Positions 630-37,036 of a stretch of 40,244 nt of DNA are shown piece by piece. This DNA comes from Acidimicrobiales bacterium (GTDB lineage: Bacteria > Actinomycetota > Acidimicrobiia > Acidimicrobiales > Iamiaceae). Where the stretch lies: contig JAOBWM010000026.1 in assembly GCA_025463365.1 (NCBI GenBank), positions 1 to 40,244 on the forward strand, given 5' to 3'. The position numbers and the translations under genes were made by a program. Numbering within the stretch: position 1 is the first letter of the stretch; every line of letters begins with the position of its first letter. The notes under the pieces were generated by a model. It was not told the DNA's origin and did no database searches. It worked only from the letters and a program-made list of their open reading frames with translations.

Positions 630-675
630 TTCTGAGCGCCCCACGTCGCACCCATGCGACCCAGAGCGCTCAGAA
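630..675. repeat. 46-bp nested dyad, family 1, single copy
   Basis: This element has a fully symmetric layout: a 10-bp outer stem (TTCTGAGCGC with GCGCTCAGAA), a 5/5 internal loop, a perfect 6-bp inner stem (GTCGCA with TGCGAC) and a 4-nt apical loop CCCA. It lies between two plus-strand genes. Eight further copies of exactly the same length occur at 9.7-9.9 kb and 11.9-12.3 kb. There is no T-run after it, so it is not a canonical intrinsic terminator. Confidence 0.9.
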
Positions 676-740
676 TCGTCGATTCACCTCACCACAGCGG
701 CGCCCGCACGGGGCAGGCCCGATTGTCAGACCCCTCGGGG

Positions 741-1076
741 ATGATGTCGGGCATGGAGTCGTCGTCGTTGCAGTTCGCCGCCACCGTGCGCACCCTCGGA
801 GCCGCCGCCCGGCAGCGCGGGCTGGTGGTGCCGGGGTTCCGGAGCCCGCCTCGCGTGCCCAAGGCGGAGCGGACCATCCGGTGGGGCAACGACGGCTCGG
901 CCACGGTGGCGGTCACCGTGAAGGGCCGGCCGTACCAGGCGGTGGTGGCCGACCTGATCGAGGGGCTCGTGGTGGTGAACGGGCTGGACGGCACCGAGGC
1001 CACGAGGATGCGCACGCACTTGTGGGAGGAGGTGGTGTCCGCTCACCGGGCCGCAGCCTGGCCAGGCGCCGCCTAG
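741..1076 (+). CDS. conserved-looking small protein of unknown function
   Basis: This predicts a 111-residue soluble protein that I do not recognise. The start at ATG 741 is chosen because a longer frame from 654 would begin inside the 46-bp dyad repeat. ATG 744 and ATG 753 are alternatives. The N-terminal half is basic (AAARQRG, PRVPKAERTIRW). The centre looks like a compact beta-rich fold (SATVAVTVKGRPYQAVVADLIEGLVVVNG) and the C-terminus is an amphipathic helix. There is no signal peptide, membrane segment or cysteine cluster. Codon use is typical of the window. It stands alone between dinB and tRNA-Leu, and nothing in the context suggests a role. Confidence 0.6.
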   Translation: MMSGMESSSLQFAATVRTLGAAARQRGLVVPGFRSPPRVPKAERTIRWGNDGSATVAVTVKGRPYQAVVADLIEGLVVVNGLDGTEATRMRTHLWEEVVSAHRAAAWPGAA

Positions 1077-1093
1077 CGTTCGTCGGCGCACCC

Positions 1094-1179
1094 GGCCGGG
1101 TGGCGAAACTGGCAGACGCGGAGGGCTTAAACCCCTCCGGAGCTCCGGCTCCGTGCGGGTTCGAACCCCGCCCCGGCCA
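1094..1179 (+). tRNA. tRNA-Leu (anticodon TAA)
   Basis: The 86-nt cloverleaf can be drawn by hand. The acceptor stem is GGCCGGG with CCCGGCC. The anticodon stem is GAGGG with CCCTC around the loop CTTAAAC, giving anticodon TAA at 1128-1130. A long class II variable arm (CGGAGCTCCGGCTCCG region) follows, and the T arm is GCGGG-TTCGAAC-CCCGC. The discriminator base is A1179. The next bases are CCG, so the CCA tail is not encoded. The long variable arm and discriminator A agree with leucine identity, and this tRNA reads UUA codons, which are rare in such a GC-rich genome. Confidence 0.95.
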
Positions 1180-1197
1180 CCGCTCGCTCCGGCTCCG

Positions 1198-1680
1198 TCA
1201 GGCCTTGGGGGAGATCACGACGACGGGGATGTCGCGGTCGGTGCCGGCCTGGTAGTCGTCGTAGCTCGGCCACAGGCGGGTCATGGTCGCCCATAGCTCG
1301 GGCTTCTCGTCGGCCGACGCGGTGCGGGCCACCGCGGGGTACTTGTCGCCACGGACCTGGACGGTCACGTCGGGGTGGGCCACGAGGTTGCGATACCACT
1401 GCGGGTCGTCGGGGGCGCCGCCCTTGGAGGCGACCACCACGACATCGCGCTCGTCCTCGCCAGCCCGACCGTAGATCAGCGCGAACTTGCGCTCCTCGCC
1501 CGACTTCTCGCCGGTGGTGGTGAGCACGAGGCACGGCGCGCCGTTCCAGATGTGGCCCACCTCGCCGTCGGTCTCCTCGTACTTGGCGATGTGGGCGGCA
1601 CCGAAGAGGCTGTAGTCGCCGTTGCCGGCGCGGGCCGCCTCGGCGGCCGCGGGGTCTGGGGTGTGGTCAGAAGAAGCCAT
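1198..1680 (-). CDS. F420H2-dependent nitroreductase/quinone reductase family protein (Ddn-like)
   Basis: This predicts 160 residues, the usual size of the deazaflavin-dependent nitroreductase (Ddn/DUF385) family. These are split beta-barrel proteins that bind cofactor F420 and reduce quinones or nitro compounds. Family-like stretches are GAPCLVLTTTGEKSGEERKF, VVVASKGG, and DPQWYRNLVAHPDVTVQ. The ATG at 1680 is preferred over a longer frame because a purine-rich site (GGAAGAAGG on the minus strand) precedes it. It starts 10 bp after the stop of the DJ-1/PfpI gene, so the two are probably co-transcribed. Its substrate cannot be deduced. It is one of four proteins of F420-linked families in the window. 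Confidence 0.9.
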   Translation of the reverse strand: MASSDHTPDPAAAEAARAGNGDYSLFGAAHIAKYEETDGEVGHIWNGAPCLVLTTTGEKSGEERKFALIYGRAGEDERDVVVVASKGGAPDDPQWYRNLVAHPDVTVQVRGDKYPAVARTASADEKPELWATMTRLWPSYDDYQAGTDRDIPVVVISPKA

Positions 1681-1690
1681 GGCCTTCTTC

Positions 1691-2491
1691 CTATCCGGCG
1701 CGGAACGGCTCCGGACCCGGATCTTGCGCGCTCGCCTCGAGCAACTCGACGAAGCGGCGGGCGAACAGGTACGCATCGCCGGGCCAGCGGGCCGACACGT
1801 AGCGACGGTCGAGCACCACGAACGCCGGGCCGTCGTCGGTGGCCGTGCCGCGCTTCGAGCCGATCGGACCCCGCACGAACACCCCGCCCGGGCCCACGGC
1901 GGCGGCGACCTCGGCCTGCACGTAGGCCGGGTAGGTCCGGTAGTAGCGGCCGAGGCGCCAGAAGGTCAGGAAGTACGCGAGCCGTTCCTGCCAGGCGGTG
2001 AGGGCGGTGGTGCGCCGGCCGTACAGGACGCTGCGTCCCATGTCGGGGTCGATCGAGCGGGCCAGCACCAGCACGCCGTGGCAGATCGCGCCCACCGGTC
2101 GCTCGAGCTTCCAGAACCGGGCCACCTGCTGCTGGAGCACCGGATCGCCCAGGTACTGGCGCATGCCCGGTGCGTGGCCGCCGGGAAGGAGCAGGCCGTC
2201 GAAGGAGGCCATGCCGAGATCGCCGTCGAGATCGCCGTCGAGATCGCCCCACGCCAGCGGCGCTCGGAACGCCGGATCGTCGACCAGCTGGCGGTAGAAG
2301 GCCTTGGGCTCGGGTTCGGCACCGAGCTGTCCGAAGATCACGCCGTCGAGCAGCTTCGGATCACCGGCCGGAACGGCCCCCCGCTCGGTGGCGAACACGA
2401 CCTCGTGGCCCGCATCGGTGAGCGTGCGCCACGGGACCGCCACCTCGGTGACGTCGAAGTCGTGATCGGGCAACGGGACCAGCACGCGCAT
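1691..2491 (-). CDS. DJ-1/PfpI family (class I glutamine amidotransferase-like) protein
   Basis: The 266-residue protein has the DJ-1/PfpI flavodoxin-like fold. The nucleophile elbow is AICHG with Cys137-His138, and an LLPGGHAPG loop at about residues 101-109 lies upstream. Family members include Hsp31-like chaperone/glyoxalases and proteases, so the reaction is uncertain. An acidic stretch GDLDGDLDGDLG (residues 82-93) comes from three 12-bp units (2216-2251) and looks like a local expansion in a surface loop. The ATG at 2491 gives the canonical beta1 strand (MRVLVPLPDH). It is the first gene of a probable two-gene operon with the nitroreductase and is divergent from the gene starting at 2534, with 42 bp between the starts. 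Confidence 0.9.
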   Translation of the reverse strand: MRVLVPLPDHDFDVTEVAVPWRTLTDAGHEVVFATERGAVPAGDPKLLDGVIFGQLGAEPEPKAFYRQLVDDPAFRAPLAWGDLDGDLDGDLGMASFDGLLLPGGHAPGMRQYLGDPVLQQQVARFWKLERPVGAICHGVLVLARSIDPDMGRSVLYGRRTTALTAWQERLAYFLTFWRLGRYYRTYPAYVQAEVAAAVGPGGVFVRGPIGSKRGTATDDGPAFVVLDRRYVSARWPGDAYLFARRFVELLEASAQDPGPEPFRAG

Positions 2492-2533
2492 GGGGACTCA
2501 TCATGGCCGAGCCGCGGCCTACCGTGACCGGCC

Positions 2534-3295
2534 ATGTCCACGCGGAACCTGTACCTGCACGAGGTCATCGACATCGTCGGGCAGGGCCAGTACGACTACA
2601 TGGCGCACTCGGGCAAGGAACCGACCAACGCCATGCCCGACATGCTGACGCTCCAGGGCACGTTCTTCGTGTGTGCCATGGGCGGCGGCCGGTGGCCGCA
2701 GGTGATCAACATCTGGGATGTGGGCGAGGCCGGGTGGCAGGGCTGGGCGGCCAACGTCGACCGCCTCAACCTGAAGCGGCGCAACGCGTTCTATGGCGAC
2801 TGGTGGGACGAGGCCGCGCAGTGGCGCACGGGCGGGTTCGATCGGCTGTGCGGCGGTGTGCCCGGCAGCCCGACCACCGCGGAGATCGCGGCACGCGAGG
2901 TGAAGGGGACCCTCTTCGTCCACCAGCTCCTCACGGTCCGGCCCGGCAGCGGGCTCGACTACCTCGCCGCGGTGGTCGAGGAGCAGGTGCCGACCTGGCG
3001 GGATCATGGCCACGAACCCACCGGCATCTACGAGGTCCTCGGCAACCAGCACGAGGTGCTCGTGGTGTGGGCCACGTCGATCGCCGCCCAGACCCGGATG
3101 CGGGCGGCGCGCGACGCCGCGCGCGGCCTGAGCGACGAGGTCGACGGGGACGATCGGCTCGTGGACTGGGAGCGGATCTCGGCCGGATTCGTCACCGGCG
3201 GCGACACCCACCTCATGACCCCGCAGCCTGGCACCGTCTACGGCCCCGACGACTGGGACGAGGCGTCACTCGACGACTGGCTGTCGCCCGACTGA
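2534..3295 (+). CDS. hypothetical protein, possible dimeric alpha/beta-barrel (NIPSNAP-like) fold
   Basis: This predicts a 253-residue soluble protein. Two similar halves can be seen, each with an aromatic-rich strand followed by a helix: YLHEVIDIVGQGQYDYM with QVINIWDVGEAGW in the first, and TLFVHQLLTVRPGSGLDYL with GIYEVLGNQHEVLVVWA in the second. This is what duplicated NIPSNAP or ABM-like domains look like, but the assignment is inference only. The C-terminus is acidic. No signal peptide or catalytic motif is apparent. It is divergent from the DJ-1/PfpI gene and may share its regulatory region. Confidence 0.8.
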   Translation: MSTRNLYLHEVIDIVGQGQYDYMAHSGKEPTNAMPDMLTLQGTFFVCAMGGGRWPQVINIWDVGEAGWQGWAANVDRLNLKRRNAFYGDWWDEAAQWRTGGFDRLCGGVPGSPTTAEIAAREVKGTLFVHQLLTVRPGSGLDYLAAVVEEQVPTWRDHGHEPTGIYEVLGNQHEVLVVWATSIAAQTRMRAARDAARGLSDEVDGDDRLVDWERISAGFVTGGDTHLMTPQPGTVYGPDDWDEASLDDWLSPD

Positions 3296-3440
3296 CGTTG
3301 CCGGTCGCCCGGAACGCCGAAATGCCCTCGAACGGGTGAGGCGAACGGAGATTCGAGCCTTTCATCGGGTTCGGCGAGGCGCGAGACTCACGGCGTTGCG
3401 CCTCGCACGGAACCCGGGTGCACGTGAGGGAGGAGACCCC

Positions 3441-6400
3441 GTGCACACGATGCTCCGGCGTTCGCTCGTCGCGGCCACGGCCGCGCTGTTGTTGGTGGCA
3501 GGTGTCGGCCTGCCATCCGCGGTCGAGGCGCTCGGCGGAGGCGGAAGCGGACGGGGACGGGGAGGCCCGCAGCCGCAGCTGGCCCACGGTGGAAGCGGCC
3601 ACGACCACACCGCCCACGGCGTTGCCGGGCAGAACGGCATGGATCACGAACGTCAGATGGCCGAGATGGATGCCGTGGCCGAGGCGAACGGCCTGACGAA
3701 GGCACCGGGCGGGGGACGGTGCGCGGACTGGTACCAGTTCCGCACCCAGACCGGCCTGCACTGCGCCAAGGCGCCGATGCTGCGGGACATGTTCACCACC
3801 GAGCAGCTCGCTGCGTCCACGCGGCCGCCGGCGTATGCCTCCGACCCCAAGGTGACGTGCATCGGTACCGGCACCGACGGCAAGCGGGTCGAGCTCGTCT
3901 ATGCCCGCCGCTCCAACAAGACCGATCGCTACGCGGCCACCGCGACCCAGCTGAAGGGGTGGGCGGCCGGCATCGAGCAGACCATGGTGCTGTCGGCCCA
4001 GAAGACCGGCGGCGTCCGCAAGGTCCGGTGGGTGCACGACTCGAACTGCGTGGCCACGGTGCTGAACATCACGGTGGCGACCACCGTCACGACGTTCTCG
4101 GACCTGGTCTCGGCCCTCCAGGCCCAGGGCCTCACCGCCACCAACCGGAAGTACCTCATCGCCTGGGACGACGGCGACGCCACGGGCGCGTTCTGCGGCC
4201 TTGGCGAGACGATGCCCGACTCGACCGCGGGTGCCACCAACCAGAACGAGACCCAGCCGATCGGCGCCATGTTCGCAGCGGCCGAGCCGAACTGCTGGAC
4301 GACGACGGTGGCAGCCCACGAGCTCATGCACACGCTCGGTGCCGTCCAGCCCAACGCACCGCACGCCACCCAGTACGGCCACTGCACCGACGAGAGCGAC
4401 ATCATGTGTTACGTCGACGGCGCCGGCAGCGTCATGGCGCAGGTCTGCCCGGCATCGCAGGAAGCCCTGTACGACTGCAACGACGACGACTACTTCAGCA
4501 CCAACCCACCCGTCGGCAACTACCTCAAGACCCACTGGAACCCGGCGAGCAGCGGCTTCCTCGACGTCACCGGTTCGGTCGGCCCCCCGACGGCGCCCCA
4601 GGACCCGACGATCACCCCGCACGCCGGTTCGGTCACCGTGACCTGGTCGGCCCCGGCGTTCAACGGCGGCTCGCCGCTGCTCGGCTACATCGTCACGATC
4701 TCCCCAGGCGGACGCACCGTGTCCGTCGGAGCGGGCACCACCACGGCAACGGTCACCGGCCTGGCCGACGGCACGCCGGTCACCGCGTCGGTCGGCGCGG
4801 CCAACAAGCTCGGTACCGGCTCCGAAGCGGTCACCGGGAGCGCCACCCCCGCGCCTCCCGTCGAGACCATCGCCACGACGGGTGCCGGCAGCACCTACCA
4901 AGACATCGCCCGAGGGCCGTCGGGATCGGTGTTCGTCGCCGCGGCCGACCGCATCGACCGGGTCGACGCCGACGGCACCAAGACCACGGTGATCCACGGC
5001 ACGTCGACCGGGGAGATCGCCGAGAACACGCTCCCGCTCGAGACGCCGGTCGCACCCCTGTCGGTCGCGGCCGACAGCGGTGGGAACGTGATCTTCTACG
5101 ACAGCCTCACCGGCAAGATCCGTCGGCTGAGCGGGGGCCATGTCAACTCGATCGCGGGCAGCGGCGAGTTCGGTGCGAACGGTGACAACGGCTCGGCGCT
5201 TGCGGCGGCGATCGACGTCTCCGGCCTGGCCGTCAACCCGGTCGACGGCGCCATCTTGTTCACCGACGCCGACCAACACGTGGTCCGCCGCTTCACGGTG
5301 GGCGGCTCGATCAACACGGTGGCCGGCCACCTCGCCTCGGGCGGGTTCACGGGCGACGGCGGGAGCGCCTCGAGCGCCAGGCTCGACGGTCCGCAGGACC
5401 TGGCGATCGACGATGCCGGCAACGTGTTCGTGGCCGACACCCTCAACCACCGGATCCGGAAGTTCACGGTGGGCGGTGTGATGTCGACGGTGGCCGGCGA
5501 CGGGACCACGCCGGTCTACCCGGGGACGACCCTCGTGGCCACGGCCACCGGGGTCGGCTACCCCTCGGCCGTCGACTGGTCCTCCACGAAGGGCCTGATC
5601 ATCGACACGTTCGGCATGGAGCGCGTGCTGGTGGGCACCAACCTGGTTCGGTTGGCGGGCGACCTGTTCGACGACAACGCATCGGACGCCGACGGCACCT
5701 TGGCCACGGTCATCGACTACACGAAGAACGATCAGATCGACGCGATCGCCTGGTCGGGCACGGCGTTCCACGTGCTGGTCAACGGTCCGGCGCCCGGGGG
5801 CGGAGGCGAGGGAAAGCTGCGCACGGCCGGACCCTGGAGCCCGACGGCGACCGCCACCGCACCTGACGCCCCAGCGGGCGCCCCGGTCGCGACCGCCGGT
5901 GCCAACTCGGCCACGGTGGCCTGGCTCCCGCCGGGCAACGGCGGTAGCCCGATCACCTCGTACAAGATCACCGCCAGCCCCGGTGGAGCGGTGACGACCG
6001 CGGCCGCTTCCGCCTCGTCGGTCGCGGTTGCGGGGTTGGTCGCAGGGACGCCCTACACGTTCACCGTGGCTGGCGTGAACGCGAAGGGCACCGGCGCGGC
6101 CTCGCCACCGTCGAACGCGGTGACGCCGACGGCGGCACCGACGGCTCCCGGCGCGCCAACCGGAGCATCGGCCGCACCCGCGAGCGGACAGGCCACGGTG
6201 ACGTGGACCGCGCCGGCATCGAACGGGGGATCGGCCATCACCGGATACGTGGTCACGCCCTACGCCGGCGCCACCGCCAAACCGGCGGTCGCGTCGTCGG
6301 GCACGGGGACCTCGAAGGTCGTCACGGGGCTCGTCAACGGCACGAGCTACACGTTCAAGGTCGCCGCCGTGAACGCCATCGGCACCGGCGCTCAGTCGGC

Positions 6401-7112
6401 CCCGTCGGCCGCGGTGAAACCGATCGCGCCTTATGCACCGTTCCCGTCGTGGACCGCGTTCGTGAACCGTCAGTACCTCGACCTCACGACCAAGGCACCG
6501 AGCGCGTCGTCGCTCTCGAGTTGGGTGTCGCAGCTCTCGGCGGGCACCAAGAAGAAGGGCGACCTGGACGACGCGCTGCGGCGGGGCGCCGAGAACCTCT
6601 CCGATGTCGACCCGGTCGTTCGGGTCTATCGGGCCTTCCTGGGCCGAGCCCCCGATGCCACTGGCCTCAAGTTCTGGATCAAGCGCCGACGCAACGTCGC
6701 GCCGGCCAAGACGTGGACCGTCACCCAGATCGCCACCGACTTCACGAACAGCAACGAGTTCACGTCCAAGTACGGGTCGCTGACGAACCGCGAGTTCGTG
6801 ACCCGCATCTACACCGACGTGCTCGGTCGGACCGCCGATCAAGCGGGCGTCGACTACTGGACCAACAAGCTGGACACGAAGACGAAGACGAAGGCCCAGG
6901 TGATGGTGGGCTTCTCGGAGTCCAACGAGTACAAGACCAAGCAGGCCCAGAACACCGATCTCGCCGTCGCGTACATCTACTTGCTGGGTCGCACCCCGAC
7001 CACGCCGGAGACGACCGACTGGGTGACCCGGGAGAAGGGGGGCACCCCGCACGCCACGCTCCTCACCGAGCTCCTGAACAGCGCGGGCTACGCCACCCAC
7101 ATCACCGGGTGA
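3441..7112 (+). CDS. large secreted modular protein: metalloprotease-like, FN3, NHL propeller, two FN3, DUF4214
   Basis: The chosen start is GTG 3441, with AGGGAGGAG 5 bp upstream; ATG 3450 is an alternative. The product is about 1,223 residues. Modules in order are: a signal peptide (RRSLVAATAALLLVAGVG); a zinc-protease-like domain with HELMHTLGAVQ (His293, Glu294, His297), a possible third ligand His314 in GHC, and a Met-turn-like DIMCY (Met322); an FN3 domain (about 382-471); a six-bladed NHL-type propeller (about 474-800, with repeats such as DLAIDDAGNVFVADTLNHRIRKF); FN3 domains at about 807-897 and 899-995; and a DUF4214 region (about 1000-1223) with repeated YRAFLGR, YTDVLGR and YIYLLGR motifs. 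Such proteins are exported and probably act at the cell surface or on polymers outside. The third zinc ligand is inferred. Confidence 0.88.
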   Translation: MHTMLRRSLVAATAALLLVAGVGLPSAVEALGGGGSGRGRGGPQPQLAHGGSGHDHTAHGVAGQNGMDHERQMAEMDAVAEANGLTKAPGGGRCADWYQFRTQTGLHCAKAPMLRDMFTTEQLAASTRPPAYASDPKVTCIGTGTDGKRVELVYARRSNKTDRYAATATQLKGWAAGIEQTMVLSAQKTGGVRKVRWVHDSNCVATVLNITVATTVTTFSDLVSALQAQGLTATNRKYLIAWDDGDATGAFCGLGETMPDSTAGATNQNETQPIGAMFAAAEPNCWTTTVAAHELMHTLGAVQPNAPHATQYGHCTDESDIMCYVDGAGSVMAQVCPASQEALYDCNDDDYFSTNPPVGNYLKTHWNPASSGFLDVTGSVGPPTAPQDPTITPHAGSVTVTWSAPAFNGGSPLLGYIVTISPGGRTVSVGAGTTTATVTGLADGTPVTASVGAANKLGTGSEAVTGSATPAPPVETIATTGAGSTYQDIARGPSGSVFVAAADRIDRVDADGTKTTVIHGTSTGEIAENTLPLETPVAPLSVAADSGGNVIFYDSLTGKIRRLSGGHVNSIAGSGEFGANGDNGSALAAAIDVSGLAVNPVDGAILFTDADQHVVRRFTVGGSINTVAGHLASGGFTGDGGSASSARLDGPQDLAIDDAGNVFVADTLNHRIRKFTVGGVMSTVAGDGTTPVYPGTTLVATATGVGYPSAVDWSSTKGLIIDTFGMERVLVGTNLVRLAGDLFDDNASDADGTLATVIDYTKNDQIDAIAWSGTAFHVLVNGPAPGGGGEGKLRTAGPWSPTATATAPDAPAGAPVATAGANSATVAWLPPGNGGSPITSYKITASPGGAVTTAAASASSVAVAGLVAGTPYTFTVAGVNAKGTGAASPPSNAVTPTAAPTAPGAPTGASAAPASGQATVTWTAPASNGGSAITGYVVTPYAGATAKPAVASSGTGTSKVVTGLVNGTSYTFKVAAVNAIGTGAQSAPSAAVKPIAPYAPFPSWTAFVNRQYLDLTTKAPSASSLSSWVSQLSAGTKKKGDLDDALRRGAENLSDVDPVVRVYRAFLGRAPDATGLKFWIKRRRNVAPAKTWTVTQIATDFTNSNEFTSKYGSLTNREFVTRIYTDVLGRTADQAGVDYWTNKLDTKTKTKAQVMVGFSESNEYKTKQAQNTDLAVAYIYLLGRTPTTPETTDWVTREKGGTPHATLLTELLNSAGYATHITG

Positions 7113-7218
7113 CCGCGGCCGGGCTCGGGTGGGACTCGCCGACCGCTCGCGCTTGCACGGGTAGCCTCGCCCCTCGGTCACGCTCGTCGGCCGACATCAC
7201 AGGGAACCAGGGGACGAC

Positions 7219-9660
7219 ATGAAGCAGGGGCGCACGCGCGCGGCGACGGTTGCAGTCGCACTGGTGGTCGCCATGCTCGCTGCGGGGTGCAGCAGCAGCG
7301 GGAGCGACGGGGCGTCGACGCCCTCGTCCACCACGGGTGGGCGGGCCGGGGTGGCACCGCGTGCCAAGGCCACTGGCCAGTACGCCACCGATCTCGGCCT
7401 CAAGGTCGACCCCGGCGAGAAGACCGCCAAGGCCACCTTCGAGGTCCAGCCCGGGACCGAGGAGGTCACCGTCCTCGGCGGGAAGCCCAAGCAGCGCTTC
7501 TCGCTCATCGATGCCGGCGGCAACCGCCTCGTGGTCCTCAAGGCCGACCGCTTCGGCCAGGTCCACTTCTCCTACCTGCCGACGAAGCTCGCCGAGTTCC
7601 AGACCGGTGCCCGGACCAAGCTGCCGACCTCCGATGGCTTCCCCGTCGCCGCGGGCGACGGCTACACGGTGCGCAGCGAGGACACGTCGCCAGTGCAGGC
7701 CTCGAAGGCGTTCCACGTGCTCGGCCGCGACGACAACCCGAAGCCCTCGTTCTTCGACGCCGAGAAGGGCAAGCTCGGCCCGACGGGCGACGAGACCTCG
7801 TGGTTCGGCTACGAGACGATGCGCGACGGCGTGCAGCTGAGCATCAACGTCCGCCTGCCCGGCCCGCCCGACAAGGGGCCGTACCCCACCGTCGTCGAGT
7901 ACTCCGGGTACGGCCCGGCCAACCCGAACGCCCAGGAGCCAGGCTCGATGATCGCCGGTCTCCTGGGCTACGCCACGATCGGCGTCAACATGCGCGGCAC
8001 GGGCTGCTCGGGTGGCGTCTTCGACGTCTTCAACACCGCCCAGCAGGTCGATGGCTACGACATGATCGAAGGCCTCGCCCGCCAGCCATGGGTCAAGGAC
8101 CACAAGGTCGGCATGGTCGGCCTCAGCTACTCCGGCATCACCCAGCTGTACGTGGCCGCCACCCAGCCGCCGCACCTGGCGGCCGTCACGTCGCTGTCGG
8201 TCATCAAGGACCCGTGGCTCGAGCAGTGGCCGGGCGGCGTCTACAACGGCGGATTCACCAAGTCGTGGCTCGAGGAGCGCGACCGCGAGTCGTCGGCCAC
8301 CGGGACATCGTGGGTCGGCGAGCGGATCGCGGCCGGCGACGACACCTGCAAGGCCAACCAGGAGCTGCGCGAGCAGAACATCGACTTCGAGTCGTTCGGG
8401 CGCTCCCTCGTTCGCCGGCCGTTGCAGGACGACGACCGGGACCTCTCGAAGCTCGTCGACCGGATCAAGGTTCCGGTGTACCTGACGGGTGCATGGCAGG
8501 ACGAGCAGACGGGCCCGCAGTTCGCCGACATGTTGGGCCGCTTCACCAACGCGCCGGTGAAGCGCTTCACCATGTTCAACGGCCGCCACCCCGACGGCTA
8601 CACGCCCCTCGTGCTCACGCGCTGGTACGAGTTCCTCGAGTTCTTCGTCGACAAGAAGGTCCCGCGCCTGTCCGACGGCATCCGGTCGGCGGCACCAGCG
8701 GTCCTCCGGGACAGCTTCGGGGACGTGGACGGCCTCGACTTCGAGCCCGACCGCTTCACGAAGTTCCGCGACGACCAGTACGCCGAGGCCCTCGCGGCCT
8801 ACGAGAAGGAACCCGACGTCCGGGTCCTGTTCGACGTCGGCGGCGCGCCGGGCACGAAGCCGGGTTCGCCGGTGGCGACCTTCGACAAGAGCTACTCGTC
8901 CTGGCCGCCGAGCGAGACGAAGGCGCAGGACTTCTACCTGACCCCCGCGGGCGTGCTGGGGACGGCGGGGGCACCGGTCGCCACCGGCGGCGAGCAGTTC
9001 GCCAACGACCCCTCGGCCGCTCCGGTCGACTTCTGCAAGACCGAATGCGGTCTGCTCGACCCCACCTGGGACTTCGACTGGACCAACTACGGCAAGGGCA
9101 ACGGCTTGGAGTACGTCACCAAGCCGTTCACCAAGGACACCGTGCTCGGTGGCCCGGGCTACGCCGACCTGTTCGTGCAGGTCCCCGATGGCGACGCCGA
9201 CGTCCAGGTGACGCTCAGCCTCATCCGCCCCGACGGCACCGAGTGGAAGGTGACCACCGGCGAGCTCCGGCTGAGCGACCGGAAGGTCGACGCCTCCCGC
9301 TCGAAGGGTCTGTTGATCGAGCGCACGTACTCGAAGGCGGACGCCCGGGCCATGCCGAAGGGGTCCTACGCCGAGGCCAAGGTGGCGTTCCCGTCGTTCG
9401 CCCAGGCGTTCCGCAAGGGCGATCGGCTCCGGGTGGCCATCTCCAGCCCCGGGCGGGACTTCGCAGCCTGGACCTTCACCGGCATCGGCAAGGCCGGCAC
9501 ACCCCGGATCATCGGGTTCGGCCAGGACCATCCCTCGAAGATCGTGCTCGGCGTGCTGCCCGGCATCTCGAAGGTCCCGGCGATCGACACCGCCTGCCCG
9601 TCGCTGCGCGGCCAGGCCTGCCGCCCCTACACCCCCACCCCGAACACCCCGTCTCCCTAG
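7219..9660 (+). CDS. CocE/NonD-type (X-Pro dipeptidyl-peptidase S15) hydrolase, lipoprotein
   Basis: The protein has 813 residues. It begins with a lipoprotein signal ending LAAGC (Cys24), so it is anchored outside the membrane. An alpha/beta-hydrolase core of the CocE/S15 family follows: EYSGYGP, NMRGTGCSGG, and the nucleophile elbow GLSYSG with Ser303. A C-terminal jelly-roll domain (PF08530-like) contains VQVPDGDADVQVTLSLIRPDGT. The family hydrolyses esters or amides, including acylated beta-lactam precursors and cocaine; the true substrate here is unknown. The roughly 170 residues between the lipobox and the catalytic domain are unusual and resemble no domain I know. ATG 7219 follows a GGGGAC site. 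The gene is 106 bp downstream of the metalloprotease-like gene. Confidence 0.88.
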   Translation: MKQGRTRAATVAVALVVAMLAAGCSSSGSDGASTPSSTTGGRAGVAPRAKATGQYATDLGLKVDPGEKTAKATFEVQPGTEEVTVLGGKPKQRFSLIDAGGNRLVVLKADRFGQVHFSYLPTKLAEFQTGARTKLPTSDGFPVAAGDGYTVRSEDTSPVQASKAFHVLGRDDNPKPSFFDAEKGKLGPTGDETSWFGYETMRDGVQLSINVRLPGPPDKGPYPTVVEYSGYGPANPNAQEPGSMIAGLLGYATIGVNMRGTGCSGGVFDVFNTAQQVDGYDMIEGLARQPWVKDHKVGMVGLSYSGITQLYVAATQPPHLAAVTSLSVIKDPWLEQWPGGVYNGGFTKSWLEERDRESSATGTSWVGERIAAGDDTCKANQELREQNIDFESFGRSLVRRPLQDDDRDLSKLVDRIKVPVYLTGAWQDEQTGPQFADMLGRFTNAPVKRFTMFNGRHPDGYTPLVLTRWYEFLEFFVDKKVPRLSDGIRSAAPAVLRDSFGDVDGLDFEPDRFTKFRDDQYAEALAAYEKEPDVRVLFDVGGAPGTKPGSPVATFDKSYSSWPPSETKAQDFYLTPAGVLGTAGAPVATGGEQFANDPSAAPVDFCKTECGLLDPTWDFDWTNYGKGNGLEYVTKPFTKDTVLGGPGYADLFVQVPDGDADVQVTLSLIRPDGTEWKVTTGELRLSDRKVDASRSKGLLIERTYSKADARAMPKGSYAEAKVAFPSFAQAFRKGDRLRVAISSPGRDFAAWTFTGIGKAGTPRIIGFGQDHPSKIVLGVLPGISKVPAIDTACPSLRGQACRPYTPTPNTPSP

Positions 9661-9678
9661 CATCGGCCACCCCGGGTC

Positions 9679-9708
9679 GGGCACCCGGAGGCGGACGTCG
9701 GGTGGCCC
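9679..9708 (+). terminator. GC-rich hairpin after the CocE-type gene
   Basis: GGGCACCCG (9679-9687) can pair with CGGGTGGCCC (9699-9708) with one bulge. It begins 18 bp past the CocE-type stop and lies just before the first dyad of cluster B. There is no T-run, so it may be an attenuating structure rather than a canonical terminator. Confidence 0.3.
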
Positions 9709-9721
9709 GGAGGGCGCCCAC

Positions 9722-9945
9722 TTCTGAGCGCTCTGTGTCGCGCCCACGCGTCACCAGCCGCTCAGAACGGGCGCGGGTCGGGCGCGCCCCCGGGGTCGGG
9801 CACCCCCGGGTCGGCCCCGGGGTGCCCACTTCTGAGCGCCCCACGACGCGCCCACGCGTCACCAGCGGCTCAGAACGGACGCGGGTCGAGCGGCCCCCGT
9901 TCTGAGCGCCCCGCGTCGCGTCCACGCGTCTCCAGCCGCTCAGAA
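9722..9945. repeat. cluster of three 46-bp nested dyads, family 1 (9722-9767, 9830-9875, 9900-9945)
   Basis: Each copy is 46 bp with terminal TTCTGAGCG and CTCAGAA. The apical loop is CCCA in the first two and TCCA in the third. The middle copy has a perfect inner stem (GACGCG with CGCGTC), while the others carry one mismatch. Start-to-start spacings are 108 and 70 bp. The 437-bp gap (9661-10097) holds only these dyads, two GC-rich hairpins and the L,D-transpeptidase leader; no gene is seen in it. Confidence 0.92.
9798..9827. terminator. strong GC hairpin between two dyad copies
   Basis: GGGCACCCCCGGG (9798-9810) pairs with CCCCGGGGTGCCC (9815-9827) at 12 of 13 positions around a TCGG loop. 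It sits two bases before the second family 1 dyad. It is a plausible factor-assisted terminator or a composite part of the repeat; no T-run follows. Confidence 0.35.
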
Positions 9946-10097
9946 GGGCGGGGGCAAGGCAGGTCCGGCGGTGTCGTCACGTGGTGAGGTGGCGCTCGTC
10001 GTTCGCCGGTGCCTGGGTTTCGGGTTGCCCGCCATGCCAGAATGCTCGGCCCGACGGTCGGGACGGGCGGGGGCCCAGGAAACGAACGCAGGTGAGG

Positions 10098-11000
10098 ATG
10101 GACGCCAACGTGCGCGACGGGCGACGGATCGGTCGACGGCAGCTCGCGGCCCGACGAGTGGTGATCGGCGTCGTGTTCGGCGCGCTCGTGCTCGCCGGGT
10201 GCTCGAGCGGCAGGGGCGACTTGACCTCGTCTGGCCCCGGGACCACCGCCGTGCCGGCCGTGACCGACGGCGCCACCTCCACCACCGCAGCCACCACGAC
10301 CTCGACTGCGCCGCCCACCACAACGACGACCGCGCCGCCCACCACCACGACCACGACCTTGCCGGTGACCGAGCTCGTCGAGCCGACCGGCCCGCTCCAG
10401 TCGGGCAGCAAGGGCAAGCGCACGCTCGCGCTGCAAAACGCACTCAAGGCCCAGCACTACGACCCGGGTGAGCCCGACGGGCGGTTCGGCCTCAAGACCA
10501 CGCTGTCGATCTGGGCGTTCCAGGGACTGCACGGGCAGCCCCAGAGCGGCGTGGTCAGCCCCGAACTCGAGGCCCTGATCCTGGCGAACCCGGCCCAGGC
10601 GATGTTGCGGCCGGCTCTCGGCCCCACCCACACGGAGGTCGACCTGACCCGCCAGGTCCTCATCGTGTGGCACGACGGCCAACCGAGGCTGATCACCCAC
10701 GTCTCGTCGGGCAGCGGCCACGCCTACTGCGAGGACACCAAGGTCGGCCGGGCCTGCGGCGACGCCCTCACCCCCCTGGGCGTGTTCAGCTTCTACCGCC
10801 AGATCCAGGGCATCCGCGAGGCAGCGCTGGGCAAGCTCTACGACCCGGTGTACTTCACGGGTGGCTTCGCGGTCCACGGGTCGCCGTCGGTGCCGGACCA
10901 CCCGGCGAGCCACGGCTGCGTCCGCATCCCGATGTCGATCTCGACCTACTTCCAGTCCCTCGTCACGCTCGGCGAGAAGGTCGAAGTCTTCCGGTCCTAA
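10098..11000 (+). CDS. L,D-transpeptidase (YkuD) lipoprotein with peptidoglycan-binding domain
   Basis: ATG 10098 follows AGGTGAGG closely and gives a 300-residue lipoprotein with lipobox LVLAGC (Cys35). A Thr/Pro-rich linker (about residues 50-92) spaces the protein from the membrane. A PG_binding_1 domain follows (GSKGKRTLALQNALKAQHYD to FQGLHG, about 98-145), then a YkuD catalytic domain ending in HG at 260-261 and SHGCVR (His272, Cys274). These enzymes form 3-3 cross-links in peptidoglycan or attach proteins to it. All catalytic residues are present. The upstream in-frame extension to 9981 is rejected because it lacks a ribosome site and would bury the signal peptide. The gene follows cluster B of the dyads. 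Confidence 0.93.
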   Translation: MDANVRDGRRIGRRQLAARRVVIGVVFGALVLAGCSSGRGDLTSSGPGTTAVPAVTDGATSTTAATTTSTAPPTTTTTAPPTTTTTTLPVTELVEPTGPLQSGSKGKRTLALQNALKAQHYDPGEPDGRFGLKTTLSIWAFQGLHGQPQSGVVSPELEALILANPAQAMLRPALGPTHTEVDLTRQVLIVWHDGQPRLITHVSSGSGHAYCEDTKVGRACGDALTPLGVFSFYRQIQGIREAALGKLYDPVYFTGGFAVHGSPSVPDHPASHGCVRIPMSISTYFQSLVTLGEKVEVFRS

Positions 11001-11045
11001 CGCCGTTCCGGCGTCGGCCTTGGTCCTCGCGAGACGCGATCGCCG

Positions 11046-11918
11046 TCAGAGCTTGGCGATGACCTTCTCGGCGAAGGCGCCATAGGCCTCGGGGGCGGAC
11101 TCGGCGTCCCAAGCGAGCGGTGGGATCACGATTCGGTGGACACCGAGGGCCTTCATCTCCGCCACCGCGCCGAGCGGATCGTCGCGGCCGCTGGCCGGCA
11201 TGCCGGCGGTGATCTCGATGGTCGAAGGGTCGCGGCCGGCGTCCTCGGCGGCATGGCGCATGACCTCGAACAGATTGCCCAGCTGTTCGAGGCTGCCCTT
11301 GCCGGGGAAGAACCCGTCGCCGATGCGACCGGCCCGCTTGGCCGCCAGCTCGCTGTGCCCGCCGATCACGATCGGTACCGTCCCGTTCGTCGGGGTCGGC
11401 AGGCTGACGGCGCGCTCCCACCGGTGGTAGCCGTCGTCGACGTCGGTCTCCTCGCCGGTCCACAGCGCGCGCATGGCGGCGACGTAGGCATCCATGCGCT
11501 TGCCCCGGCCGGCGAACGGCACGCCGAGGGCGTCGAACTCCTCCTCGAGCCACCCCACCCCGATCCCCAGGCGCACCCGGCCGCCGGACAAGCGATCGAG
11601 GGTGGCGACCTCCTTGGCCGCGATGCCCGGGTTGCGCTGCGGCAGGATCAAGATCCCGGTGCCGAGCAGCAACGTGTCGGTGACGGCGGCGACGTAGGCG
11701 AGCCACACCAGCGGGTCGGGGATCGGGACGGTCTCGCCACCGGGCATCTTGCCGCTGCGGGCGTAGGGGTACGTCGACTCGTAGTCGGCCGGGACGAGCA
11801 CGTGCTCGACCGTCCAGATCGAATCGAAGCCGGCAGCCTCGATGGCTCGGGCGCACCCGGCGGCGGTGGGTCCCTCGGCGAGGGGCCCGGAGTTGGCAAA
11901 GGCGATCCCGAACAGCAT
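11046..11918 (-). CDS. LLM-class F420-dependent oxidoreductase
   Basis: The 290-residue protein is a luciferase-like TIM barrel. Recognisable segments are CARAIEAAGFDSIWTVEHVL, the LLGTGILILPQRNP strand-loop, VATLDRLSGGRVRLGIGVGW and GRRGKRMDAY-like F420/flavin contact regions. Members use F420 or FMN to reduce or oxidise diverse substrates, so specificity is open. ATG 11918 is preferred because the longer open frame upstream is made only of dyad repeats. It converges on the L,D-transpeptidase gene. The 890-bp repeat-rich gap lies upstream of its start. Confidence 0.9.
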   Translation of the reverse strand: MLFGIAFANSGPLAEGPTAAGCARAIEAAGFDSIWTVEHVLVPADYESTYPYARSGKMPGGETVPIPDPLVWLAYVAAVTDTLLLGTGILILPQRNPGIAAKEVATLDRLSGGRVRLGIGVGWLEEEFDALGVPFAGRGKRMDAYVAAMRALWTGEETDVDDGYHRWERAVSLPTPTNGTVPIVIGGHSELAAKRAGRIGDGFFPGKGSLEQLGNLFEVMRHAAEDAGRDPSTIEITAGMPASGRDDPLGAVAEMKALGVHRIVIPPLAWDAESAPEAYGAFAEKVIAKL

Positions 11919-11942
11919 GCGCCGGACCGTACCGCCACATCC

Positions 11943-12306
11943 TTCTGAGCGCTCCACGTCGCATGCGTGCGACGCCAGCCGCTCAGAACCGGGGGGCGAG
12001 GGCGCTGGCATTTCTGAGCGCTCTACGTCGCGTGGGTGCGACACCAGGCGCTCAGAACGGGGGTCGGCGCCGGCTCTGGAACGGGGGGCGAGGGGCTGGG
12101 GCGACGAGGGTGCCGGCATTTCTGAGCGCTCGGCATCGCATGGGTGCGACACCAGCTGTTCAGAACCGGGGGCGGCGAGGGGGCTGGCATTTCTGAGCGC
12201 TCCACGTCGCAGGCGTGCGACACCGAGCGCTCAGAACCGGGGAGGCCGCCGGCGCCGCGATTTCGAGCGCTCGGCGTCGCGTGGGTGCGACACCAGGCGC
12301 TCAGAA
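11943..12306. repeat. array of five 46-bp nested dyads, family 1
   Basis: Copies lie at 11943-11988, 12012-12057, 12120-12165, 12191-12236 and 12261-12306, all exactly 46 bp. Spacers are 23-25 bp, except for one of 62 bp, and are GC-rich, related but not identical. On the minus strand the apical loop is CCCA in three copies, CGCA in one and CGCC in another. The flanking genes are both on the minus strand, so loop orientation relative to transcription matches the other two clusters. The third copy has a decayed outer arm and the fifth starts TTTCGAG. Confidence 0.92.
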
Positions 12307-12514: not shown

Positions 12515-12827
12515 CCAGCGCCTGACGGCGGGTGCGTCGTGAGTTGCCTGGCGCTGGTGGCCTTCGCAGTGCAGTGCGGGGCCCCAGCGCCTGACGGTGG
12601 GTGCGTCGTGAGTTGGCCTGGCGCTGGTGGCCTTCCCGGTACAGCGCGGGGCCCCAGCGCCTGACGGTAGGTGCGTCGTGAGTTGGCCTGGCGCTGGTGG
12701 CCTTCCCGGTACCGGGCGGGGAGCCCGAGCGGGTGACGGTGGGTGCGTCGTCGGTTGGCCTGGCGCTGGTGGCCTTCCCGGTACCGGGCGGGGAGACCCA
12801 GCGCGTCGTCAGTTGACCTGGCGCTGG
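12515..12827. repeat. tandem array copied from the 3' end of the acyl-CoA synthetase gene; each unit holds a 43-45 bp nested dyad
   Basis: Units of about 70 bp (steps 69, 70, 72 and 58) repeat the last ten codons of the acyl-CoA synthetase plus trailing DNA. Each holds an outer dyad CCAGCGCC with GGCGCTGG and an inner dyad GACG with CGTC around a GTGGGTG-type loop (CCCA on the minus strand). Dyads lie at 12515-12557, 12584-12627, 12654-12697 and about 12725-12769. A shortened version at 12798-12827 includes the true stop codon region. The remaining part of the 11919-12808 gap (12307-12514) shows no gene. Confidence 0.85.
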
Positions 12828-14359
12828 CGGCCTTCCCAGTACGGGGCGCGGAGCTTGAACTTCTGCAGCTTGCCGGTGGCGGTGCGGGCCAGTTCGTCGC
12901 GGAACTCGATGCGCTTGGGGACCTTGTAGCCGGCGAGCTTCGTGCGGCAGTGGTCCCGCAGCTCGTCGTCTGTGGCCGATGCACCGGGCGCCAGCACGAC
13001 GAGGGCGAGGATCAGCTCGCCCCACTTCTCGTCGGGCACGCCGATCACCGCGACCTCGGCCACCGCGGGATGGGAGAAGAGCGCGTCCTCGGTCTCGATG
13101 GACGACACGTTCTCGCCGCCGGAGATGATCACGTCCTTCTTGCGGTCCGAGATGGCGAGGTAGCCCTCGTCGTCGATCGTGCCGCCGTCGCCGGTGCGGA
13201 ACCAGCCGTCGACGATGGCCTCGGCTGTGGCATCGGGCTGCTCCCAGTACCCCTCGAGCACGTGGTTGCCCCGAGCGAGGATCTCGCCCTCCTCGTCGAT
13301 GCGCACCGAGATGCCGAGGGCGGGCGCGCCGGCCCGACCCAGCTTGACCGCTCGCTCGCCCGGCGTGAGGTCGTCCCACTCCGCACGCGTGCGGTTCATG
13401 GTGAGCAGGGGAGCGGTCTCGGTGAGCCCGTAGATCTGGACGAACTCCCAGCCGAGCTCGGTCTCCACCCGCTCGATGGTGCGGGTGGGCGGCGGTGCCC
13501 CGGCCACCACGATGCGGGTGCGGCCGGCACCCGGGATGGGTCCGTCCCACGTCGCCGCGGCGTCGAGGATGGCATTGACGACGGCCGGCGCGCCACACAT
13601 CAGGGTCACCCCGTGCTCGTTGACCCGGCGCAGGATCTCGGCGCCGTCGACCTTGCGGATGACGATCTGCTTCGTGCCCATGCCGGTGTTGGCGTAGGGC
13701 ATGCCCCAGCCGTTGCAGTGGAACATCGGGAGCGTGTGCAGGAACACGTCGCGGTCGTTGACCCCGGTCTGCCAGCCGAACGTGGTGGCGTTGAGCCACA
13801 GCGACCGGTGGGTCTGCTGGACGCCCTTGGGTCGGGCTGTCGTGCCGCTCGTGTAGTTGATGACCGCGGTGGCGTCCTCGTCGGGCGTCCACGGTTCGGG
13901 CTCGACGTCGTAGAGGGTGCCGTCCATGCCGAACAGCTCGGCGTCGGACTCGCTGCCGATGGTGAAGCGGTGCTGCGCCTTGACGTCGCCGAGCACCTCC
14001 TCGACCTCGGGATCGACGAGGAGCACCGATGCGCCCGAGTGCTCGACGATGTAGCGCACCTCCTCGGCCGCCAGGCGGAAGTTGACCGGCACGAGGATCC
14101 GGCCGCTCCCGCTGACGCCGAAGAACGAGGTGAGCAGGCGGGCCGAGTTGTGCGACACGATCGCGACGCGGTCGCCCTGGGCGACACCGAGGCGGTCGAG
14201 GGCGGCGGCCTGCGTGCGCGCCCGCTTGGCCATCTCCCCGTAGGTGACCGACCCCCACGACGGTGCCGGCTGGTCGGGCTCGTCGACGAACGCGGTCCGT
14301 TCGGGGTACACGTGGCACGCCCGGCTCAAGAAGTCGGGGATGGTGAGCGGGACCCGCAT
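12809..14359 (-). CDS. long/medium-chain fatty-acid--CoA ligase family protein (AMP-forming)
   Basis: The 516-residue ANL-superfamily adenylating enzyme makes acyl-CoA from a carboxylic acid, ATP and CoA. Motifs are the P-loop YTSGTTARPKGV (169-180), the YGLTETAP adenine-pocket motif, the DGWFRTGDGG hinge region, and the C-terminal lysine in RTATGKLQKFKLR. ATG 14359 follows a GGAGG site on the minus strand. Chain length cannot be read from the sequence. On the minus strand a TAGGGT hexamer lies near 14410, a possible -10 box. The final codons (YWEGRQRQVN) are the source of the tandem array immediately downstream. It is divergent from the PhoD-like gene. Confidence 0.93.
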   Translation of the reverse strand: MRVPLTIPDFLSRACHVYPERTAFVDEPDQPAPSWGSVTYGEMAKRARTQAAALDRLGVAQGDRVAIVSHNSARLLTSFFGVSGSGRILVPVNFRLAAEEVRYIVEHSGASVLLVDPEVEEVLGDVKAQHRFTIGSESDAELFGMDGTLYDVEPEPWTPDEDATAVINYTSGTTARPKGVQQTHRSLWLNATTFGWQTGVNDRDVFLHTLPMFHCNGWGMPYANTGMGTKQIVIRKVDGAEILRRVNEHGVTLMCGAPAVVNAILDAAATWDGPIPGAGRTRIVVAGAPPPTRTIERVETELGWEFVQIYGLTETAPLLTMNRTRAEWDDLTPGERAVKLGRAGAPALGISVRIDEEGEILARGNHVLEGYWEQPDATAEAIVDGWFRTGDGGTIDDEGYLAISDRKKDVIISGGENVSSIETEDALFSHPAVAEVAVIGVPDEKWGELILALVVLAPGASATDDELRDHCRTKLAGYKVPKRIEFRDELARTATGKLQKFKLRAPYWEGRQRQVN

Positions 14360-32140: not shown

Positions 32141-32249
32141 TTCTTGTGTTCAATCGGCGCCGTGGGGCCGACGATGTCACACAAGAAGCGGCGACGGTCC
32201 GGTTCTTGTGTTCGATCGGAGCCGTGGGGGCGACGATGTCACACAAGAA
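32141..32249. repeat. two 47-bp nested dyads, family 2 (32141-32187, 32203-32249)
   Basis: Both copies have perfect 9-bp outer arms, TTCTTGTGT and ACACAAGAA. The first has a 5-bp inner stem (TCGGC with GCCGA). On the minus strand the loop region reads CCCCAC or CCCCCAC, containing CCCA. They lie between the acyl-CoA dehydrogenase stop and the acetyltransferase start, 62 bp apart. Confidence 0.9.
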
Positions 32250-32862: not shown

Positions 32863-32971
32863 GTTCTTGGTCAAGATCGGCGCGCTGGGCCAGCCGCTTT
32901 TGAGCGAGAACCGCGGGTGGGTCGTTCTTGCTCAAGTTCGGCGCGCTGGGCGCGCCGCTTTGATCGAGAAC
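32863..32971. repeat. two 48-49 bp nested dyads, family 3 (32863-32911, 32924-32971)
   Basis: Outer arms are GTTCTTGSTCAA with TTGAGCGAGAAC (10 of 12 paired) or TTTGATCGAGAAC. The second copy has a perfect inner stem GGCGCGC with GCGCGCC around a 3-nt loop. The minus-strand loop reads CCCA in both. They fill the space between two convergent genes and could act as a bidirectional terminator. Confidence 0.9.
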
Positions 32972-36906: not shown

Positions 36907-37036
36907 GATTCGTGTCGATCGTCGACCGCCCGGGTGCACGATCGACAGGAATCGGTCCTGGAGTCGGATGGGTGGTGGCGGTCGCGACGAATTCGTGTCG
37001 ATCGTCGACCGCATGGGTGCACGATCGACAGGAATC
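36907..37036. repeat. two 47-bp nested dyads, family 4 (36907-36953, 36990-37036)
   Basis: Outer arms pair GATTCGTGTCGATCGT with ACGATCGACAGGAATC, with one mismatch. In copy 1 pairing can continue outwards to 36902-36957. Copy 2 has GCACCCATGCG at its centre on the minus strand, an 11-mer also found at the centre of the family 1 copy at 630. The pair fills much of the fumA/fumC divergent promoter region. Confidence 0.9.

Follow-up and report, generated by a model that had tools for sequence, protein, structure and literature searches.

Dispersed 46-bp palindromes in an Acidimicrobiales genome and their family-specific pairing with genes for AbiEi-like proteins carrying a DUF559 domain

The window analyzed here is the 40,244-nt stretch of contig JAOBWM010000026.1 (positions 1 to 40,244, forward strand) in the assembly GCA_025463365.1 of an Acidimicrobiales bacterium, hereafter the host genome (G000); a protein match of 64% to an Acidimicrobiales bacterium agrees with this assignment. 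The window carries a symmetric palindromic element, F1, as a single copy and in two arrays. An earlier reading made from the sequence alone (the sequence-only reading) had described nine copies of exactly 46 nt as well as two outer-arm variants, one in the 3' arm at 12156-12165 and one at 12261. All nine copies lie where they were placed and have this length, and both arm variants are real. The copies, to none of which a strand is assigned, are as follows.

630..675, no strand, F1 single copy, between two forward-strand genes
9722..9767, no strand, F1 array 2 copy 1
9830..9875, no strand, F1 array 2 copy 2, 108 bp after copy 1
9900..9945, no strand, F1 array 2 copy 3, 70 bp after copy 2
11943..11988, no strand, F1 array 3 copy 1
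12012..12057, no strand, F1 array 3 copy 2
12120..12165, no strand, F1 array 3 copy 3, variant 3' arm
12191..12236, no strand, F1 array 3 copy 4
12261..12306, no strand, F1 array 3 copy 5, variant 5' arm

As set out below, palindromes of this kind are paired, family by family, with genes of one type in the host genome, in its relatives and in part of the phylum. We consider it fairly probable that the 46-bp elements are dispersed palindromes resembling repetitive extragenic palindromic (REP) sequences, each family being paired with a gene of its own whose product combines an AbiEi-like winged helix and a nuclease domain.

Using F1 in a BLAST search of the host genome, we added 24 further stretches to the window. 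Scanning all of these for the outer-arm pattern gave 80 matches, 77 of which are exactly 46 nt, far beyond chance; the other three are a 47-nt copy, a copy whose 3' arm the pattern located wrongly and which therefore measured 55 nt, and a 40-nt match that arose by chance within a predicted gene. The total is 79 copies in 28 clusters, and the flanks are unrelated between clusters. The pattern scan overlooks at least one divergent copy (C105:22991-23036, found by BLAST and a covariance model) and a partial copy (C84:8110-8144, found by BLAST), while the F1 covariance model gave at least 102 matches on the host genome, with many copies matched once on each strand. Outside the host genome, the exact pattern had no match in 84,980 named genomes, a set that may not include the host genome or one close to it, and none in viral contigs. 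In 60 relatives, the covariance model gave weak matches alone, scoring at most 29 bits compared to 53 to 73 bits in host copies among the matches listed. Twelve relatives have such weak matches: those in G003, G014, G020, and G035 are other palindromes, one in G054 resembles a palindrome, and several in the remaining seven resemble chance matches in genes. The G054 match is a lone palindrome with GAGCGCTCGGATC-type arms (L036:1495-1560). Rfam models found only one transfer RNA in the window.

Two arrays in the relative G020 enclose one gene, the host-genome homologue of which also adjoins F1 arrays. In Pfam, the G020 gene matches AbiEi_4, with DUF559 below its cut-off. The F1 partner gene (C134:2164-3132) encodes 322 amino acids with no stop and starts 84 bp past an F1 array ending at 2080; the next F1 array, at 4353, lies 1.2 kb beyond the gene and past another gene. 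To define partner candidates, we used DUF559 hits by profile alone in five genomes and then inspected their flanks. The 25 hits were reduced to 23, as L178 was dropped (662 amino acids, helicase-like by eye) and L163 was counted under the host genome as L186. Our criterion was that similar palindromes should be located on both sides of the gene within 700 bp, with an alignment score of at least 0.45 per base. Based on this criterion, 18 of the 23 genes in four relatives (G003, G014, G020, and G035), 4 of the 5 host-genome genes (the fifth being the F1 partner itself), and, among the best loci of other actinobacterial genomes, 10 of 29 were flanked by such palindromes. None of the 300 control genes and none of the 600 mismatched cross-locus flank pairs passed; the control genes were drawn from G020, G003, and G000 only and not from the other 29 genomes. 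With other settings, an earlier flank test gave 15 of 25 genes and 0 of 300 controls, and another rule gave 15 of 34 loci, 5 of them from the host genome. The partner family matches at an E value of 0.001 or better in 71 of 119 sampled actinobacterial genomes, the host included, and F1's protein had no match in plasmid and phage collections. We note that a partner gene and its adjoining elements at one G020 locus (L160:3690-7118) have a NuoA-like gene on one side and a Nuo antiporter-type gene on the other, each on the strand opposite to the partner gene.

A dedicated gene next to palindromes could also point to classical REPs, or the hairpins formed from them (REPINs), moved by an overlooked REP-associated tyrosine transposase (RAYT) of the Y1 type, with which the elements share that they are palindromic, extragenic, and of several families (PMC3116915, PMC3733652). 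However, the Y1_Tnp profile (PF01797) had 0 matches in the host genome, which is 98.4% complete, while 5 of 14 control genomes were matched. Moreover, none of 10 Y1 loci of relatives has elements bearing the end motifs sought, and 4 of the 6 Y1 loci examined for repeats carry other flanking palindromes. We therefore regard a RAYT as a most improbable source of the elements. The flanking palindromes at four Y1 (RAYT-like) loci (L051, L052, L054, and L055, in G020, G023, and G049) are of another class, with GGGTCAGACCC-like or GGTGCCAGGCACC cores, and Y1-type and partner-gene systems can share one genome.

The pairing of gene and element extends to individual families. The host genome has five partner-type genes, of which two (C151:24055-24954 and C166:2584-3483) each have one stop codon (in-frame TGA). 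We compared six element sets, including those of the other palindrome families in the window (F2, F3, F4, and F6, listed below), with the elements of these five genes. F3 was nearest to the elements on C149, F4 to those on C151, and the GTGTGCGC element sets of L010 and L111 to those of the C54 gene, while F2 and F6 had no clear match; F4 copies like the C151 elements are still present in the window despite the in-frame TGA in C151. For 35 genes, protein identity correlated with element similarity (Mantel r of 0.312 for all pairs and 0.285 between genomes, each reached in 0/5000 permutations). This set comprises 35 of 57 flank-test genes, since genes without a clear element were left out, and the elements of L161, L175, L180, and L187 were entered by hand. 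Finally, the nine proteins closest to F1's protein (at least 41% identity) all have at least one element ending in TTCT/AGAA; by our inspection of this list, 1 (L184) of the other 25 has one as well.

From its profile matches, the partner protein appears to consist of an AbiEi-like winged-helix DNA-binding module and a DUF559 domain related to EDxHD/Vsr nucleases, and it likely cuts DNA. PADLOC AbiEi profiles match 23 of the 25 members of the protein alignment, in F1's protein over approximately residues 8-184, and Pfam AbiEi_4 matches 18 of 25 at an E value of 0.01. The C-terminal part matches the PDB entries 3hrl (a DUF559 protein; E value 2.3e-10), 3r3p (2.9e-4), and 1cw0 (Vsr; 4.6e-4), of which 3r3p is a mobile-intron protein that we take to be I-Bth0305I. 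In the 25-member alignment, D248, E259, G191, G194, and G286 are invariant, while E216, H266, and D275 are present in 90% or more; by our mapping, the conserved D/E/H residues may correspond to the EDxHD motif. The AbiEii toxin (PF08843, DUF1814) was found in none of four of the five genomes and not among ten proteins neighboring partner loci or elements. The host genome has a lone AbiEii-type match (C80:2396-2905), which exceeds the cut-off at 26 bits and lies on a different contig from the partner genes.

Using a simple codon-score gene finder to define gene contexts, we found that 27 of the 28 F1 clusters lie between predicted genes. The 23 clusters with both neighbors known comprise 7 convergent, 13 same-strand, and 3 divergent gaps; the 178 gaps of 100 bp or more comprise 27, 90, and 61, respectively. 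Convergent gaps hold 9 of 23 clusters in G020 and 12 of 15 (9 of 12 distinct gaps) in G003. We compared one G020 array with the corresponding flank in G014 and G023, identified by the orthologous gene; the G020 elements are missing there, but the gene order differs, and no empty site with both flanks alignable was found. We note that the G023 flank matching a G020 array (L224:1300-1480) has another repeated palindrome, as judged by eye, which suggests repeated use of such gaps.

These positions bear on the possibility that the partner is a regulator, i.e., an AbiEi-like repressor for which the elements by the gene are the operator and the dispersed copies the regulon, the nuclease domain being a relic or serving another purpose. 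AbiEi is described as binding two 23-bp inverted repeats in its own promoter (PMC7319586), and F1 likewise has two 23-bp halves (2 × 23 = 46); the PADLOC AbiEi matches and a D-to-L change near the active site of F1's protein, which could mean a lost nuclease, are in line with a regulator as well. A regulon, however, would sit at promoters, while only 3 of 23 F1 clusters are in divergent gaps compared to 61 of the 178 gaps. Moreover, most partner genes have elements on both sides and not at the promoter alone, and the neighbors scanned at ten partner loci or elements are ordinary genes that do not resemble one another, except for two acyl-CoA dehydrogenases. We therefore consider it unlikely that the elements are primarily operators.

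The sequence-only reading had also held that every copy keeps the 10/5/6/4/6/5/10 layout and that this reflects selection on structure. The layout holds for length but not for every pair: of 73 distinct copies, 25 have an open innermost outer pair, 12 an open inner pair 2, and 9 an open outermost pair. As for selection on structure, the alignment of 77 F1 copies (73 distinct) has nearly invariant outer arms and inner stem, and no excess covariation was found within F1: in this larger alignment, 3 pairs had two-sided change, 106 of 500 shuffles had at least as many, and the covariation score was 0.079 versus 0.076. The sequence-only reading had named such an outcome as grounds for its refutation. 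Between families, the picture is reversed, and the reading is thus supported in part. We aligned seven families with related proteins (7 of the 10 families of this protein clade), all of exactly 46 nt and with the same layout but different stems. In this alignment, 26 cells changed on both sides compared to 9.9 in shuffles, the covariation score was 0.62 versus 0.17, and 91% of the cells were paired versus 67%; none of these values was matched in 500 shuffles (0/500 each). Pair types were matched by 1 of 500 shuffles, slid (shifted) controls were far lower, and 10 of 16 pairs had two-sided change, which was reached by 15 of 500 shuffles. The terminal five pairs, TTCTG/CAGAA, are invariant across the seven families, and the result holds without these pairs. 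Because the elements were found as palindromes, part of the pairing between families is due to selection of the material; the fixed register is not explained in this way. Two-sided change is also expected from a protein dimer on a symmetric double-stranded site, so these data do not prove hairpins, and given the AbiEi-like partner, we consider the double-stranded site at least as likely as a hairpin. The partner gene, the fixed spacing, and the pairing of other families with other genes go beyond the sequence-only reading.

Computed as single-stranded DNA, the copy at 630-675 folds exactly into the structure described (z-score of −7.6). For the copy at 12012-12057, the centroid equals this structure, while the minimum-energy fold differs slightly in an internal loop (z-score of −4.6). 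These stable folds, computed as DNA, and the preference for a position after genes would fit RNA-level hairpins that end or stabilize messages and have no link to a nuclease. Such hairpins leave the pairing of gene and element family unexplained, their orientation relative to genes is mixed as judged by eye, and separate hairpins do not need a fixed spacing. Accordingly, we find this explanation very improbable for the elements as a whole, although an RNA-level role could be a secondary use of them.

The spacing of the elements is fixed nearly to the base pair. Among 51 F1 neighbor distances, 29 are 68-71 bp, 7 are 80-82 bp, 6 are 88-91 bp, 4 are 96-100 bp, 4 are 107-111 bp, and 1 is 128 bp; thus, the unit consists of 46 bp plus mostly 22-25 bp, and the longer spacings lie near 81, 89, 98, and 108 bp. 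In the G020 family TTCTGAGCC, all 43 of 43 pattern matches are 46 nt, and the 20 spacings are 14 of 70 bp and 6 of 71 bp. In the G003 family TTCCTGTCG, the 27 matches comprise 25 of 43 nt, one of 44 nt, and one chance match in L102, and 8 of the 13 spacings are 60 bp, the rest being 56, 101, 141, 214, and 334 bp; in the G003 family AACTTGTGGGC, the spacing is 72.5 to 73 bp in each of five arrays. Because fixed units recur with unrelated spacers, the spacing must be set by a mechanism or by selection. F1 spacers are often alike within an array and different between arrays, and we rejected a classification of the arrays as clustered regularly interspaced short palindromic repeats (CRISPR) on the likeness of spacers within one array.

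One way to account for the spacing is a chromosome scaffold, in which arrays are read by the partner protein, with the fixed spacing arising from how this protein makes contacts along the DNA. Besides being fixed within families, the F1 steps are periodic: when each class in each array contributes a single value (32 values), none of 4,000 uniform draws was as regular, and among the 19 values exceeding 75 bp, 2 of 4,000 draws were. The best period is approximately 9.4 bp and not the 10.5 bp of free DNA, at which the signal is weak (0.41), so helical phasing of F1 at 10.5 bp is unsupported. Chromosome-organizing sites are conserved, unlike F1, which was not found at comparable scores in 11 members of the genus, and a scaffold leaves the nuclease domain unexplained. 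Overall, a scaffold seems to us decidedly unlikely.

We infer that the partner protein binds, cuts, and moves the elements. In the mechanism that we propose, two protein molecules would sit as a dimer on one element via their AbiEi-like parts, one on each 23-bp half; the nuclease domain would nick or cut DNA at or near the element; and repair of the break would copy the element to new intergenic sites and duplicate it locally in fixed units. The protein would thus act like a homing endonuclease serving a non-autonomous repeat. For comparison, I-Bth0305I is described as dimerizing on a target of nearly 60 bp (PMC3943268). Copies may lie mainly after gene ends because insertions elsewhere were removed by selection, and the protein may also regulate its own expression through the copies adjoining its gene.

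Several observations weigh against this interpretation. No insertion or excision event was caught. The F1 partner gene itself does not pass the flank criterion, having an array within 700 bp on one side only, and its protein matches AbiEi_4 and DUF559 only below curated cut-offs. L replaces D at the second position after E259 (VExDG) in this protein and in several close homologues, so the nuclease of F1's protein could be altered. The presence of DUF559 in 25 of 25 members is partly due to selection, as most members of the alignment were chosen by DUF559. Of the 29 loci sampled elsewhere in the phylum, 19 fail the flank criterion, and of the 24 outside the class, 6 pass; the flanks available are short at some of them. 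At a score of 0.35, 19, 4, and 14 genes pass in the three groups, and the controls rise to 24 of 300 and 10 of 600. For the window families F2 and F6 and the G003 family TTCCTGTCG, a partner was not found. G054, in which no partner-type gene was found among the 19 of 49 candidates scored, has the palindrome-like weak match to the F1 model. Finally, tandem duplication with fixed flanks does not cleanly account for the first duplication in the arrays, as spacers resemble outer flanks weakly and without a sharp edge. Tandem palindrome arrays number 0 in G054, 1 in G171, 5 in G020, and 8 in G003 per 400 kb and 1 in 262 kb in G000; the contrast with G054 is weak because one G020 array is of the RAYT-associated type and the G+C content of G054 is lower.

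The pairing of AbiEi-like genes and palindromes resembles several known systems without coinciding with any of them. With REP/REPIN-RAYT systems as described (PMC3116915, PMC3733652), it has in common that the palindromes are short, extragenic, and of several families within one genome, that a distinct gene lies next to the family it belongs to, and that the elements form ordered tandem clusters and sit mainly downstream of genes. It differs in that the partner has an AbiEi-like part and an EDxHD/Vsr-related domain instead of being a Y1 enzyme of the histidine-hydrophobe-histidine (HUH) type, and in that the elements are approximately 43-50 bp with two nested stems and near-exact spacing. By eye, no GTAG or CGTC end tag is present in the 77-copy F1 alignment, in which the ends are TTCT/AGAA and mostly paired. 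A dedicated enzyme gene between its own repeats, as in REP/REPIN-RAYT systems, is thus found here with a different enzyme, F1's gene being one-sided. CGTC-tagged REPs are likewise REP-like palindromes not tied to a RAYT, but are described in PMC3733652 as lacking a known dedicated enzyme, while a dedicated gene is present here. AbiEi antitoxins of type IV toxin-antitoxin systems share the AbiEi-type profile, and their 23-bp repeats equal half of an F1 element; here, however, no AbiEii gene is among the scanned neighbors, and a nuclease-like domain is joined on. The EDxHD homing endonuclease I-Bth0305I and Vsr have a nuclease domain related by profile, whereas the partner here is a free-standing gene outside any intron seen, with dispersed repeats as its proposed targets and an AbiEi-like DNA-binding part. 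The bacterial interspersed mosaic elements (BIMEs) of enterobacteria are, as here, arrays of palindromic units with linkers; our arrays differ in having no alternating unit types and a different enzyme.

In the open-access literature, judged by search listings and with subscription journals mostly outside, we found nothing on a pairing of DUF559/AbiEi/Vsr-type genes with palindromic repeats. The data hint that bacteria may have a previously undescribed means of spreading and maintaining short repeats. We give roughly even chances to the broader proposition that the REP-RAYT problem was solved a second time by independent evolution, in that many actinobacteria would have a dedicated AbiEi-EDxHD endonuclease per palindrome family that cuts a double-stranded symmetric site of approximately 46 bp and builds fixed-unit arrays. 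If true, this would give a function to a large protein group now labeled DUF559 or AbiEi antitoxin. The concrete gene-repeat pair suggests what a widespread and so far unexplained group of proteins may do, and it is a warning that proteins profiled as AbiEi antitoxins may be repeat-bound nucleases without a toxin.

The window contains four other palindrome families, to which no strand is assigned either.

32141..32187, no strand, F3 copy 1 (TTCTTGTGT..ACACAAGAA), most like the elements flanking the partner gene on C149
32203..32249, no strand, F3 copy 2, 62 bp on
36907..36953, no strand, F4 copy 1, most like the elements flanking the C151 partner gene (in-frame stop)
36990..37036, no strand, F4 copy 2, 83 bp on
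32863..32911, no strand, F6 copy 1 (GTTCTTGGTCAAG..AGAAC), partner not found
32924..32971, no strand, F6 copy 2, approximately 61 bp on, partner not found
12515..12851, no strand, F2 tandem palindromes (CCAGCGCC..GGCGCTGG), five copies 58-72 bp apart, partner not found

F2 is less symmetric, and its membership in the class is uncertain. It has a GTGGGTG stretch like that of F1 and adjoins the end of a gene that by eye is adenosine monophosphate (AMP)-ligase-like. In addition, the window has in-register tandem repeats of 30 bp at 33391-33540 and of 15 bp at 20244-20303, both possibly within genes.

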